DNA of 64,000 nucleotides from assembly GCA_003223515.1 (NCBI GenBank), contig QHVI01000017.1, positions 1 to 64,000 on the forward strand. The letters run 5' to 3'. Position 1 is the stretch's first letter. Every line of letters starts with the position of its first letter. Source of the DNA: Candidatus Angelobacter sp. Gp1-AA117. Lineage in GTDB: Bacteria > Acidobacteriota > Terriglobia > Terriglobales > Acidobacteriaceae. The notes below the pieces were generated by a model. The model searched no databases, was not told the DNA's origin, and worked only from the letters and a program-made list of their open reading frames with translations. This document shows, piece after piece, positions 12,070 through 41,250 of the stretch. The translations under genes and the position numbers were made by a program.

Positions 12070-12129
12070 AGTTTTCCGATTCGCTATGGAGCTTCGGATT
12101 CTATCGTAGTACAGGTGTGCCTTGCTGAT

Positions 12130-12158
12130 TTGAGCGAATCAGCAAGCATTGTTATAAT
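12130..12158 (+). promoter_or_regulatory. promoter of tRNA-Phe
   Basis: TTGAGC (12130-12135) and TATAAT (12153-12158) with a 17-bp spacer, about 70 bases before the tRNA. A 9-bp inverted repeat (TTGCTGATT / AATCAGCAA, 12122-12145) straddles the -35 box and may be a regulatory site. Confidence 0.75.
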
Positions 12159-12226
12159 CAAACACGTTGCACGCAGAAAGCCTCTCTGAATCCCACCGAA
12201 GCTCGCGTGTGTATTCAAACAAGTCT

Positions 12227-12302
12227 GGCCAGGTAGCTCAGTCGGTAGAGCGCAGCCCTGAAAAGGCTGGCGTCGGCGGTTCGATTCCGTCCCTGGCCAC
12301 CA
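12227..12302 (+). tRNA. tRNA-Phe (GAA)
   Basis: A canonical 76-nt tRNA with encoded CCA. Acceptor GGCCAGG pairs with CCTGGCC; D-arm GCTCAGTCGGTAGAGC; anticodon arm CAGCC-CTGAAAA-GGCTG with anticodon GAA; T-arm GGCGG-TTCGATT-CCGTC. Unlike the tRNAs downstream it is fully standard and has its own strong promoter. Confidence 0.96.
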
Positions 12303-12530
12303 TCTTAACGGCTCTGAAATCAACTGTTTTGCCACCAGTCAAAGGAGAGTAAGAGGCCTACGATTCGTTTAGGCAATCCGTTCCGTCTATGCCGTTCAAG
12401 CACTTATTCAGCGGAATAATCGCTGGGCCTTGGCAGCATTTTAGTTAATGAATGATGTGTTGGCGAAATCGCCGACAGTTGTGAATTGTTCTCAACATAA
12501 TGCATTTGAAGTGAAGTCCATCTGAAGTTG

Positions 12531-12539
12531 TGCTATACT
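12531..12539 (+). promoter_or_regulatory. extended -10 promoter of the tRNA array
   Basis: TGCTATACT is an extended -10 element (TGn plus TATACT). A weak -35 (GTGAAG) sits 17 bases upstream. The predicted transcript starts near 12546 and runs through a ~100-nt leader and a terminator-like hairpin before tRNA-Asn. Confidence 0.55.
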
Positions 12540-12651
12540 CGATTTCGCAATGATGATACAGATTAAATCCATGATGAGACGGCGCGTCAATCGCGTTCGG
12601 CCTTCGGGATTTGTCTGTCCGTAATACTCTAAGTTCAGATTCAAATTCTCG

Positions 12652-12684
12652 AAGGCTCCGACTAAAAGTCGGGGCCTTTTGCAT
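12652..12684 (+). terminator. terminator-like hairpin in the leader of the tRNA array
   Basis: AAGGC-CCGAC (12652-12662, one bulged T) pairs with GTCGG-GCCTT (12668-12678) around TAAAA and is followed by TTGCATTTT. It lies only 14 bases before tRNA-Asn, so it would end or attenuate the leader transcript. A close relative at 13604-13640 has compensating changes in the stem. Confidence 0.65.
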
Positions 12685-12697
12685 TTTGCGGATGTTT

Positions 12698-12774
12698 TGG
12701 CCGGTAGCCAAGCTGGAAAGGCACGTGACTGTTACTCACGCCATACGCAGGTTCGAATCCTGCCCGGCCAGCCA
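12698..12774 (+). tRNA. tRNA-Asn (GTT)
   Basis: 77 nt with CCA. Acceptor TGGCCGG pairs with CCGGCCA; D-arm GCCAAGCTGGAAAGGC; anticodon arm CGTGA-CTGTTAC-TCACG with anticodon GTT; T-arm GCAGG-TTCGAAT-CCTGC; discriminator G. First gene of the array. Confidence 0.93.
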
Positions 12775-12790
12775 GATTTGTGTGAAAAGC

Positions 12791-12909
12791 AGCTCGCTAG
12801 TTCAGTAGGAAGAACGCGGCTCTCATAAAGCCGTTATCCACCCCAGCGTGCAAAGAAAACCGCGCGCGCTGGGGACCCCGGTCGCGATGGTTCGAATCCA
12901 TCGCCACCA
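12791..12909 (+). pseudogene. tRNA-Met-like (CAT) sequence interrupted by a palindromic element
   Basis: Bases 12798-12838 form a good 5' half: TA, D-arm GTTC-AGTAGGAA-GAAC and anticodon arm CGGCT-CTCATAA-AGCCG (anticodon CAT). A 48-nt palindromic element follows (12838-12885) where the variable loop should join the T-arm. A T-arm GATGG-TTCGAAT-CCATC then follows, extended by GC pairs, and GCCACCA. The candidate 5' acceptor strand AGCTCGC does not pair with the 3' end, so a complete cloverleaf cannot be drawn. It is probably a broken tRNA-Met, or a chimera of two tRNA pieces. Confidence 0.6.
12838..12885 (-). repeat. palindromic element copy 1 (in the Met-like tRNA)
   Basis: A 48-nt element with CCCCAGCG / CGCTGGGG arms around an A-rich loop, followed by GGGGACCCC-type self-complementary sequence (12871-12879). 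The reverse complement aligns with copy 2 at 13098-13141. Copy 3 at 13966-14013 is in this orientation. Confidence 0.75.
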
Positions 12910-12947
12910 GTGGAGGGGGCCTCCGGGAGGAGCAGTGCCTTATATGA

Positions 12948-13023
12948 GGGCGTGTGACTGAACGGATCAGGCACTTGATTACGAATCAAGTTCATGTGGG
13001 TTCGATTCCCACCGCGCCTTCCA
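12948..13023 (+). tRNA. tRNA-Arg (ACG), first
   Basis: 76 nt with CCA. Acceptor GGGCGTG pairs with CGCGCCT (two G-U pairs, including the first); D-arm with a short loop CTGA-ACGGA-TCAG; anticodon arm CTTGA-TTACGAA-TCAAG, anticodon ACG; T-arm GTGGG-TTCGATT-CCCAC; discriminator T. Confidence 0.88.
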
Positions 13024-13032
13024 AAAGTTCAC

Positions 13033-13149
13033 GGGTGACTGGCAGAGATGGCTGATGCACTCGCCTCTTAAGCGAGACAGGCTGGTTCGATTCCAGCGGG
13101 GTCCCCGGCGCGTGCCGCTTTTGCGCGCGATGGGGCAGAGCGTCACCCA
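13033..13149 (+). tRNA. tRNA-Lys (CTT) interrupted before the 3' acceptor strand
   Basis: Acceptor GGGTGAC (13033-13039), D-arm GCA-GAGATGGCTGA-TGC, anticodon arm CTCGC-CTCTTAA-GCGAG (anticodon CTT) and T-arm GCTGG-TTCGATT-CCAGC are all present. The next seven bases do not pair with the acceptor. After a 44-nt palindromic element (13098-13141) comes GTCACCC (13142-13148), a perfect 7/7 complement of the 5' acceptor strand, then A. So the tRNA seems split by the element between T-arm and acceptor. No CCA follows directly. It is probably non-functional unless the element is removed from the RNA. Confidence 0.6.
13098..13141 (+). repeat. palindromic element copy 2 (in tRNA-Lys)
   Basis: A 44-nt copy beginning GGGGTCCCC and containing GGCGCGTGCC, CTTTT, GCGCGCG and TGGGGC, which fold back on the initial C-run. 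It is the reverse complement of copies 1 and 3 with several paired changes. Confidence 0.75.
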
Positions 13150-13178
13150 TGTCGGTTCAAGTCCGGCAGCGCCTTCCA
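13150..13178 (+). pseudogene. orphan tRNA 3' end (T-arm, acceptor strand, CCA)
   Basis: Directly after the displaced acceptor strand of tRNA-Lys lies GTCGG-TTCAAGT-CCGGC, then AGCGCCT, T and CCA. This is a complete T-arm plus 3' acceptor of another tRNA whose 5' half is absent. It may be a relic of recombination between tRNA genes. Confidence 0.5.
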
Positions 13179-13184
13179 ATGAAT

Positions 13185-13260
13185 GGGGATGTGGTCCAAC
13201 GGATGAGGGCGCAAGGCTACGAACCTTGAGATCAGAGTTCAATTCTCTGCATCCCTTCCA
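13185..13260 (+). tRNA. tRNA-Arg (ACG), second
   Basis: 76 nt with CCA. Acceptor GGGGATG pairs with CATCCCT (first pair G-U); D-arm GTCC-AACGGATGA-GGGC; anticodon arm CAAGG-CTACGAA-CCTTG, anticodon ACG; T-arm CAGAG-TTCAATT-CTCTG; discriminator T. It has the same anticodon as the tRNA at 12948 but a quite different body. Confidence 0.88.
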
Positions 13261-13265
13261 TTTGT

Positions 13266-13355
13266 ATGAGGGCTCGGCAACCCCTTCGGCTGCGCTCAGG
13301 GTGCTGCGCCCTTGCGAAAAGTTCACGCGTCACGGCGCTCACTCTTCGTTCACCC
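13266..13355 (+). repeat. two-hairpin spacer repeat, copy 1
   Basis: Begins ATGAGGGCT and ends GCGCTCACTCTTCGTTCACC. It contains a GAGGGC-type first hairpin closed by GCGCCC and a second one closed by GCGAA / TTCGT. The same layout with different but pairing arms occurs at 13776-13843 (inverted), 14150-14225 and 14396-14471. Confidence 0.7.
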
Positions 13356-13358
13356 AGT

Positions 13359-13434
13359 GGGCGGGTAGTGTAATGGATGAACACGGCGCTGTCCGAAGGC
13401 GCAAATCCGAGTTCGACTCTCGGCCTGCCTGCCA
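13359..13434 (+). tRNA. tRNA-Arg (CCG)
   Basis: 76 nt with CCA. Acceptor GGGCGGG pairs with CCTGCCT through two G-U pairs; D-arm GTGT-AATGGATGA-ACAC; anticodon arm GCGCT-GTCCGAA-GGCGC, anticodon CCG; T-arm CCGAG-TTCGACT-CTCGG; discriminator G. Confidence 0.9.
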
Positions 13435-13603
13435 CTTTTTGCTGTTGACGGTGTTATAGAACAATGGCAGAGTAGTATTTGAGTTCAGCAATGATACGTA
13501 AGCCCCATCACGATTGCTTTACCACGCTGGCCGCTGAAACGCGGCAAGAAGCGGGGAAAGGCACATTCATGTAACGGGGGCAATCATTTACGCTTGGTTT
13601 TTG
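13435..13603 (+). other. second leader region of the tRNA array, no gene seen
   Basis: About 170 bases without a tRNA or convincing reading frame. TTGACG at 13445 could be a -35 box but no matching -10 is clear. It shares the words TTC-(A)-GCAATGATAC with the first leader (near 12545) and, like it, ends in a terminator-like hairpin. It could encode a small RNA or be a duplicated leader. Confidence 0.4.
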
Positions 13604-13640
13604 AAGGCCTCCGACACAGAATCGGGGGCCTTTTACTTTT
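13604..13640 (+). terminator. second terminator-like hairpin in the tRNA array
   Basis: AAGGCC-CCGA pairs with TCGG-GGCCTT (one bulged base on each side), followed by TTACTTTTTGCGG. It closely parallels 12652-12684, and both are followed by the same TTTTGCGG word. Confidence 0.65.
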
Positions 13641-13702
13641 TGCGGTGCATTCGTATGCGCCGGCAGGAGGCAGGCAGCCAGATTTTACTTTCAATTGAAT
13701 TC

Positions 13703-13769
13703 GAGGAGTGGTGGAGGCTACGGTTACTTCTCATTTAAAGAAAAACACCGTAACCGATTGTTCCCTCCT
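13703..13769 (+). other. hairpin with nested complementary arms, possibly a decayed tRNA
   Basis: GAGGAG (13703) pairs with CTCCTC (13764-13769) and, inside, CGGTTAC pairs with GTAACCG around 22 bases. The inner loop holds TTCT-CATTTAA-AGAA, which looks like an anticodon arm, but D- and T-arms cannot be drawn. Just before it, 13671-13690 resembles a tRNA tail (GGCAGCCAGATTTT). Confidence 0.35.
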
Positions 13770-13775
13770 CATGGG

Positions 13776-13843
13776 TGAGCGAAGAGTGAGCGCTGTCGTG
13801 CGCGAACTTTCGCGAGGGCGAAGCGGTTACCGCGGCGCCCTTA
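13776..13843 (-). repeat. two-hairpin spacer repeat, copy 2 (inverted)
   Basis: Its reverse complement reads AGGGCGCCGCGG, ..., CTCGCGAAAGTTCGCGC, ..., GCGCTCACTCTTCGCTCACC and aligns with the second half of the copy at 13266-13355. The second hairpin is closed by GCGAA / TTCGC. Confidence 0.7.
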
Positions 13844-13852
13844 GGTAAACGG

Positions 13853-13928
13853 TGCGAGGTCATTCAACTGGCCAGGATCACCGGCTTTGACCCGGTTCAT
13901 GCAGGTTCGAATCCTGCCCTCGCAGCCA
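13853..13928 (+). tRNA. tRNA-Gln (TTG)
   Basis: 76 nt with CCA. Acceptor TGCGAGG pairs perfectly with CCTCGCA; D-arm ATTC-AACTGGCCA-GGAT; anticodon arm ACCGG-CTTTGAC-CCGGT, anticodon TTG; T-arm GCAGG-TTCGAAT-CCTGC; discriminator G. Confidence 0.92.
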
Positions 13929-13940
13929 GAGTTAAAAGTC

Positions 13941-14058
13941 GGTCGCAGAGTCTGGCGGCAGGACACCTCCACCGCGCCACGCGCAAAACCGGCGTGCGTC
14001 GGGGACCCCGGTGCCTGACTGTCAGCAGGGACGGGTTCAACTCCCGTTGCGACCGCCA
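13941..14058 (+). tRNA. tRNA-Asp (GTC) interrupted between D-arm and anticodon arm
   Basis: Acceptor GGTCGCA pairs perfectly with TGCGACC; D-arm GTCT-GGCGGCA-GGAC; T-arm ACGGG-TTCAACT-CCCGT; discriminator G and CCA are encoded. Between D-arm and anticodon arm lies a 48-nt copy of the palindromic element (13966-14013). The following CCTG-ACTGTCAG-CAGG carries GTC in an anticodon-like loop similar to the classical Asp arm (CCTGC-CTGTCAC-GCAGG) but one base short. The usual T at position 8 is G. It is likely a tRNA-Asp disrupted by the element. Confidence 0.6.
13966..14013 (-). repeat. palindromic element copy 3 (in tRNA-Asp)
   Basis: Contains GCGCCACGCGC, AAAACC, GGCGTGCGTC, GGGGACCCC and GGTG in the same order as copy 1 (12838-12885) and, inverted, copy 2. 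The A-rich loop and the GGGGACCCC core are the most conserved parts. Confidence 0.75.
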
Positions 14059-14069
14059 ATTTTGTTGAA

Positions 14070-14144
14070 GCGAGCATGGTATAGCGGCTGGTGCCTCGGG
14101 CCTCCAACCCGATGACGCGAGTTCGACTCTCGCTGCTCGCTCCA
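14070..14144 (+). tRNA. tRNA-Gly (TCC)
   Basis: 75 nt with CCA. Acceptor GCGAGCA pairs with TGCTCGC; D-arm GTAT-AGCGGCTG-GTGC; anticodon arm TCGGG-CCTCCAA-CCCGA, anticodon TCC; T-arm GCGAG-TTCGACT-CTCGC; discriminator T. Confidence 0.92.
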
Positions 14145-14149
14145 TTTAT

Positions 14150-14225
14150 ATGAGGGCTCCGCAATGTGATTGCGGCGCCCTCGCCAACTGCTTGCGCTAG
14201 TCCAGCGCTGGCGTTGGCTCACCCA
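14150..14225 (+). repeat. two-hairpin spacer repeat, copy 3
   Basis: First hairpin: GAGGGC and CCGCAA pair with TTGCGG and GCCCTC. Second hairpin: GCCAAC pairs with GTTGGC around a GC-rich loop. Ends in CTCACCCA like the copy at 13266-13355. Confidence 0.75.
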
Positions 14226-14230
14226 AGTTT

Positions 14231-14306
14231 GCTGCTGTGGCCGACATACAAAGGCACCTGCCCTGTAAGCAGGCTCACGCTGGTGGGAATCCAGCCAGCA
14301 GCTCCA
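14231..14306 (+). tRNA. tRNA-Thr (TGT), with unusual D- and T-loops
   Basis: 76 nt with CCA. Acceptor GCTGCTG pairs with CAGCAGC; anticodon arm CCTGC-CCTGTAA-GCAGG, anticodon TGT; T-stem GCTGG/CCAGC. The T-loop is TGGGAAT instead of TTCRANN, and the D-loop (GACATACAAA inside GCC/GGC) lacks the GG pair. Both partners of the normal elbow contact are therefore changed. Confidence 0.82.
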
Positions 14307-14314
14307 AGTTCGAT

Positions 14315-14390
14315 GGCGGGATTGGCCGAATGGCTTAGGCACTGGATTGTGGCTCCAGTTACGAGAGTTCGATTCTCTCATCTCGCCCCA
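14315..14390 (+). tRNA. tRNA-His (GTG)
   Basis: 76 nt with CCA. Acceptor GCGGGAT pairs with ATCTCGC (one G-U); anticodon arm CTGGA-TTGTGGC-TCCAG, anticodon GTG; T-arm GAGAG-TTCGATT-CTCTC. A G at -1 (14315) faces C73, the histidine identity pair, which supports a functional gene. Last tRNA of the array. Confidence 0.93.
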
Positions 14391-14395
14391 ATTCA

Positions 14396-14471
14396 TATGA
14401 GGGCTGCGCAGACAAGCTGCGGCGCCCTCGGCAACTGCTCGCGTTAATTCGGCGCTCGCGTTGGCTCGCCA
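14396..14471 (+). repeat. two-hairpin spacer repeat, copy 4
   Basis: First hairpin GAGGGC-T-GCGCAG pairs with CTGCGG-C-GCCCTC; second hairpin GGCAAC pairs with GTTGGC (one mismatch). It closes the tRNA array. Confidence 0.75.
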
Positions 14472-41110: not shown

Positions 41111-41250
41111 GAGGTTTACCGCAGAGAACGCAGAGTTCGCAGAGAAAATCAAGTTTTAGTGCCGAAGGCACGGCATGAAAGTAGCCCGGCACGGAGCGCA
41201 GCGGAGTGCCGGGTAGTCATAACAGATGAAAGTCCCGAAGGGACCACCGA
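41111..41250. repeat. dispersed repeat and palindrome cluster
   Basis: Between the receptor and VWFA-related genes: 41111-41147 holds ACCGCAGAGAACGCAGAGTT and a further GCAGAG word, then CCGAAGGCACGG, the imperfect dyad CCCGGCAC...GTGCCGGG (41189-41213) and CCCGAAGGGACC. These resemble repeat fragments common between acidobacterial genes. No gene. Confidence 0.5.

Follow-up and report, generated by a model that had tools for sequence, protein, structure and literature searches.

Palindromic repeat insertions in three tRNA copies of a decayed tRNA array in Candidatus Angelobacter sp. Gp1-AA117

How can three tRNA genes of one bacterial array carry the same palindrome, each at a different position? 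The question is raised by a short segment of a 64 kb window, the whole stretch of DNA analysed here, which lies on contig C29 of the organism's own draft genome (G000; 6.48 Mb, 206 contigs). The original prediction left two possibilities: either the interrupted tRNAs are dead, or the locus presents a new kind of tRNA interruption. The answer is very probably that a dispersed palindromic repeat has inserted into a redundant, decaying tRNA array, and that the interrupted genes are pseudogenes for which no removal of the insert from a transcript is needed. Insertion relative to orthologues, a dispersed repeat family, redundancy of the tRNAs and extra lesions in the interrupted copies are all observed.

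The three elements share one design. (i) Copy 1 (12838-12884, + strand) lies in the variable region of a tRNA-Met copy, after the anticodon arm. (ii) Copy 2 (13098-13141, - strand) lies in a tRNA-Lys copy, between the T-arm and the 3' acceptor strand. (iii) Copy 3 (13964-14011, + strand) lies in a tRNA-Asp copy, between the D-arm and the anticodon arm. The orientation is thus + in Met and Asp and - in Lys, and the presence of both orientations had been correctly predicted. A covariance model built from these three copies (R1) scores them at 60.6, 63.9 and 63.8 bits, respectively, as its own training sequences. Their alignment spans 48 columns with a mean column identity of 84%, and the consensus, on the strand reading CCCC...GGGGACCCC, is an 11-pair hairpin followed by ACCCC. 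Within the 64 kb window, the sequence GGGGACCCC has three occurrences, all of them in these elements, where 0.46 would be expected; none of 100 shuffles contained it three or more times. Folded alone as RNA, the Met element is stabler than its shuffles (z -3.75); no such difference is seen for the Lys and Asp elements (z about -0.2 to -0.3), whose base composition already makes for strong folding.

Uninterrupted counterparts exist for all three hosts. The second array of the same genome, located on contigs C133 (reverse strand) and C122, which we infer to be parts of a single array, carries Met, Lys(CTT) and Asp(GTC) without the element. Copy 1 is absent from the orthologous Met sites of the organism's own C133 and, among relatives, of G003:C43, G004:C35 and G003:C74 (G003 belongs to the same genus); copy 2 from the Lys sites of L003 and L111 (own C122 and G003); and copy 3 from the Asp sites of L003, L111 and L114 (own C122, G003 and G008). 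Among 15 loci compared, an uninterrupted array-type Met is present at full length in four (L111, L201, L115 and L113) and in part in L112, Lys(CTT) in three (L003, L111 and L201), and Asp at 100% in four (L003, L111, L114 and L201) and in part in L202. As uninterrupted orthologues of Met, Lys and Asp are present, the palindromes are insertions. They are not chance assemblies, since intact copies match both flanks. The claim that one palindrome of 44-48 nt interrupts Met, Lys(CTT) and Asp at three positions is borne out by these alignments, and the proposed search of related genomes returned further copies of the element as well as the uninterrupted orthologues.

The interrupted copies have suffered more than insertion. 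The tRNA-Met(CAT) copy (12791-12909, +), aligned to the uninterrupted Met of L115, L111, L113 and L201, has lost 4 nt of the 3' acceptor strand and carries a G1 to A change; it is a probable pseudogene. A 5' fragment of tRNA-Ile(TAT) follows (12909-12944, +), 97% identical to the first 35 nt of the L111 gene, of which the rest is unmatched. The tRNA-Lys(CTT) copy (13033-13149, +) equals that of C122 except that 1 nt of the variable region is deleted and the encoded CCA is lost; it is fused to a 3' portion of tRNA-Arg(TCT) (13149-13178, +; 97% to positions 47-76 of the L111 gene). The tRNA-Asp(GTC) copy (13941-14058, +), also a probable pseudogene, differs from C122 Asp by a 4-nt deletion that leaves the cloverleaf open at the anticodon arm. 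The predicted closure of the Lys and Asp cloverleaves holds for the acceptor stems, with 7/7 pairs in both (GGGTGAC/GTCACCC in Lys, GGTCGCA/TGCGACC in Asp), and fails at that anticodon arm. The tRNA search with and without the element, also proposed earlier, gave a similarly divided result. When the flanks were joined at the empty site, ARAGORN called Lys, did not call Met, and for Asp made no call by default and a 'Val(gac)' call at relaxed thresholds. In intron mode, the unjoined Lys was reported as tRNA-Lys with a 15-nt 'intron' different from the element. Additional indels are present in all three interrupted copies, as against one (a 1-nt gap) of the seven comparable uninterrupted tRNAs of the window array, with L111 as reference for two of these and L003 for five; a Thr-like copy was aligned (46 identities, 22 gap positions) but left out as not comparable. 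Judged from their sequences, the interrupted Met, Lys and Asp copies probably yield no functional tRNA. The Lys copy is the weak point of the pseudogene interpretation, as its joined flanks are still called tRNA-Lys and its other defects are limited to one variable-region nucleotide and the CCA.

The array that holds these copies (12519-14390, +), downstream of tRNA-Phe, is a decayed duplicate of an RtcB-linked tRNA array from which many tRNAs are gone, as identity to the organism's own C133 and to G003:C43 and the missing tRNAs indicate. ARAGORN finds eight tRNAs in the region, tRNA-Phe included; an Rfam scan adds the interrupted Met (33.1 bits) and Lys (36.2 bits), and a more permissive one the divergent Thr-like gene at 14231-14303 (43.5 bits). 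With the G003 array L111 and its 25 tRNAs as the reference for array content (BLAST E<=1e-4), full-length window counterparts exist for seven: Asn, Arg-acg, Arg-tcg, Arg-ccg, Gln-ctg, Gly-tcc and His. Beyond these, the window has the three interrupted copies and fragments of two L111 tRNAs (Ile-tat and Arg-tct). Lys-ttt and Gln-ttg match only at places belonging to other tRNAs, and 11 of the 25 (Val, Ile-gat, Arg-cct, Glu, Gly-gcc, Cys, Thr-cgt, Thr-ggt, Thr-tgt, Ala and Pro-cgg) are unmatched in the window at this threshold. The seven uninterrupted tRNAs are 92-99% identical to their relatives, so the array is not wholly dead.

Several further features of this region deserve mention. The adjacent tRNA-Phe was considered as an attachment site of the array and rejected, since its last 13 nt (at most one mismatch) recur nowhere else in the window. 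The tRNA-Phe regions of G003:C38 and G004:C1, compared with the first 30 kb of the window, match 12129-12323 only (E<=1e-10). Window segments 12530-12690 and 13434-13690 are conserved non-tRNA segments of arrays with terminator-like hairpins and T runs at their ends (hairpins judged by eye), and a like segment lies at L003:885-1118; a leader or small RNA is possible. Stretches around 13264-13357, 14145-14236 and 14392-14470, between the tRNAs that remain and where tRNA genes are missing, are palindromic as well; the copy at 14145 has a single relative in the genome at E<=0.001, located at 14392. An Acido-Lenti-1 RNA motif (RF01687) is found at 41158-41213 (-), and RF01687 matches below the gathering score overlap the edges of palindromic element copies in L124, L146 and L178.

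A mis-assembled or foreign contig might also produce an interrupted array. The draft state of the genome, with its 206 contigs, and the affinities of the array itself agree with such an origin: window positions 12530-12835 are 97% identical to G003:C43, whereas 12346-12831 are only 88% identical to the organism's own C133. The assembly is reported to be 100% complete with 1% contamination, however, and the inserts belong to a family spread over many contigs of this same assembly. Moreover, G003:C74 also has a second, truncated array copy (Asn and a partial Met). An assembly or binning artefact is accordingly very unlikely.

Redundancy of the tRNAs extends beyond the second array. Intact genes on other contigs, identified for part of the genome's 80 tRNA matches, include Lys(CTT) in L152, Asp(GTC) in L153 and CAT-anticodon genes in L158, L161 and L004, among which initiator, elongator and Ile2 were not told apart. 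The genome thus has another version of the array and other copies of the Met, Lys and Asp tRNAs. Since the copies are redundant, insertions and deletions in the spare array would be cheap and could persist. Loss of constraint would have come first and insertion after, and the repeat would have been moved by some transposase, for which no enzyme was matched. The possibility raised earlier that these tRNAs are dead gains support from the uninterrupted paralogues in the same genome, the Met and Asp lesions and the heavy deletion of the array.

Intact arrays of this type are dense tRNA clusters, as in tRNA array units, with 25 tRNAs in L111, 27 in L003 and 29 in L201. Several Terriglobia have an array of about 25 tRNAs with an RtcB-family gene inside or beside it (L003, L111, L201, L202 and L203). 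In C122, the RtcB-family protein is encoded within the array (L003:2485-3713), with four NCBIfam RtcB matches, the best at 1.4e-129 and all below the curated cut-offs. Five or more tRNAs lie nearby in 5 of 80 rtcB loci of named genomes; a viral-contig scan for RtcB also returned 80 loci. Array units in which about 25-30 tRNA genes are clustered, in addition to house-keeping tRNAs, are described for Mycobacterium plasmids (PMC12803027), and in the Anabaena trn operon rtcB is described as co-regulated (PMC10272220). The present arrays resemble both in their clustered tRNA genes, and Anabaena in the rtcB connection. They differ from the units as described there in that rtcB lies within the array itself and that the window copy is a degraded duplicate.

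An RtcB protein encoded inside the genome's second array, together with near-perfect Lys exons, would suit a different reading of the inserts, namely that the element is intron-like and is removed from the pre-tRNA, with the ends perhaps sealed by RtcB of the sister array. Archaeal and eukaryotic tRNA introns, in the account of PMC4090602, likewise occupy unusual tRNA positions. Unlike the hosts of such introns, two of the three hosts here would be without normal arms after removal of the element, and excision is putative only. If the insert were cut out exactly, Met would still be short of 4 nt in its acceptor strand and Asp would have no normal anticodon arm; exons that form a normal tRNA, as expected of a protein-spliced intron, are found for Lys alone, apart from its CCA. 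No intron family, group I and group II cores among them, was matched in the Rfam scans of the region, and the inserts are shorter than 50 nt. Copies of the element lie in either orientation, for the most part outside tRNAs, and in the other array loci R1 finds no copy (no match at E<=5 in L003 and L111-L115; one chance-level match of 10.2 bits across L201-L203 and L208). Over the 80 rtcB loci of named genomes, R1 gave five weak matches only (E 0.024-0.72). Excision was rejected on the extra lesions, the redundancy and the dispersal, and is barely credible. The earlier suggestion of a new kind of tRNA interruption is thus unsupported: the insert is a dispersed repeat of both orientations, no Rfam intron family matches it, and intact Lys(CTT) and Asp genes exist elsewhere.

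The element is instead a dispersed non-coding palindromic repeat of a Terriglobia genus, REP/MITE-like in behaviour, being multi-copy, palindromic and present in both orientations. In its own genome, R1 finds at least 33 copies at E<0.01 and at least 42 matches at E<=1, with 150 of 615 first-look candidates scored. A match at E<=0.001 exists in 13 of 21 genomes (the organism's own and 12 of the 20 relatives); within the genus, 8 of 9 genomes, including its own, have one at E<=1e-4. Over the 33 own copies, 87.3% of stem cells are paired, and two-sided changes that keep pairing number 60 cells against 18.9 in shuffles (0/500 as high). Sliding the partners as a control reduces every measure; the alignment was fitted to R1 and so favours the R1 structure. 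The palindrome therefore appears to be maintained by compensatory change. Among the matches listed in literature searches, judged by their titles, no description of this element or of palindrome-interrupted tRNAs in Acidobacteriota was found.

The family was compared with two kinds of known repeats. REP sequences and REPINs, which are RAYT-mobilized, are likewise short dispersed palindromes in both orientations. Unlike in the GTAG REP/RAYT system, GTAG or its complement lies near either end in only 4 of 33 copies (counted with no chance control), and R1 has no match at E<=5 in the five loci, with limited flanks, of the genome's five Y1_Tnp matches. No RAYT link was found in these loci. Rickettsia palindromic elements and CGTC-tagged repeats are described as able to lie within genes (PMC3733652), as the window palindromes do. 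The hosts here, unlike those in that description, are broken tRNA copies, and CGTC lies near the ends in only 3 of 33 copies (again with no chance control).

Does the repeat seek out tRNA genes? The tRNA share of intact arrays is 84% in the two L111 blocks, 72% in L003, 55% in L114 and 47% over L111 as a whole, central gap included. Since arrays are mostly or about half tRNA, an insertion will often strike a tRNA gene. The chance that three of three insertions fall in tRNA genes is 0.59 (L111 blocks), 0.37 (L003), 0.17 (L114) or 0.11 (whole L111 span) without any targeting, so the count alone is no sign of it, and strong tRNA targeting was rejected on this basis. A point on the other side is that 4 of 33 copies are at tRNA-containing sites, which seems more than the tRNA share of the genome would give. 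The fourth of these lies outside the array, in C183 (G000:C183:41258-41409; L134:493-680, -), where a tandem 5' half-copy of tRNA-Gln is broken in its anticodon loop and is directly followed by an intact tRNA-Gln(TTG). At the corresponding place in G002 (L287), the half-copy is degenerate and R1 has no match at E<=5. In a BLAST comparison of 30 own and 26 relatives' loci with 112 tRNAs, no further element boundary coincided with a tRNA; the closest others lie 66 nt (a tRNA-Lys, L133) and about 175 nt (a fragment of tRNA-Arg, L130) away.

A separate observation concerns a tRNA-Leu-like gene (G000:C196:103234-103354, -; L004:435-555, -) with about 33 extra nt that form a second hairpin on the anticodon stem. 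It scores 41.8 bits in Rfam and receives no ARAGORN call. Among 41 genomes, its full-length match is in its own genome only, and in several relatives its 5' and 3' parts are spaced as in an ordinary tRNA-Leu. It is possibly a pseudogene.

A subtler preference can be imagined, in which the repeat core enters hairpin-coding DNA, both palindromic repeats and tRNA genes, so that the tRNA hits are targeted even though the tRNAs die. A hairpin repeat, S1, surrounds the core on both sides in 19 of 30 copies outside the window array and on one side in three more, counted with up to three substitutions per side and without a shuffled control. The S1 repeat is also common on its own, lacking the core: G000 has at least 40 contiguous matches in addition to the query locus. 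The four elements in tRNA copies sit, by eye, at joints or loops: D-arm/anticodon arm in Asp, variable region in Met, T-arm/acceptor in Lys and anticodon loop in Gln. However, the S1 composites may represent one event that was later multiplied, three hits of three fit chance, no consistent target duplication is seen by eye at the three window sites, and by tRNA BLAST none of 26 copies in relatives' loci lies inside a tRNA. Hairpin targeting is therefore doubtful. Equally tentative is its extension to a palindromic mobile element without a recognized transposase that would prefer hairpin-forming DNA (repeat loops and the joints between tRNA arms), with redundant tRNA arrays as a safe landing ground. 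If confirmed, such targeting would be relevant to site choice by palindromic repeats for which no transposase is known.

On the decay interpretation, one candidate for a 'new bacterial tRNA intron' falls away. What takes its place is a clear case of array decay: one genome has the same tRNA array twice, once in a more complete and once in a decayed form, and repeat insertions mark the decay.
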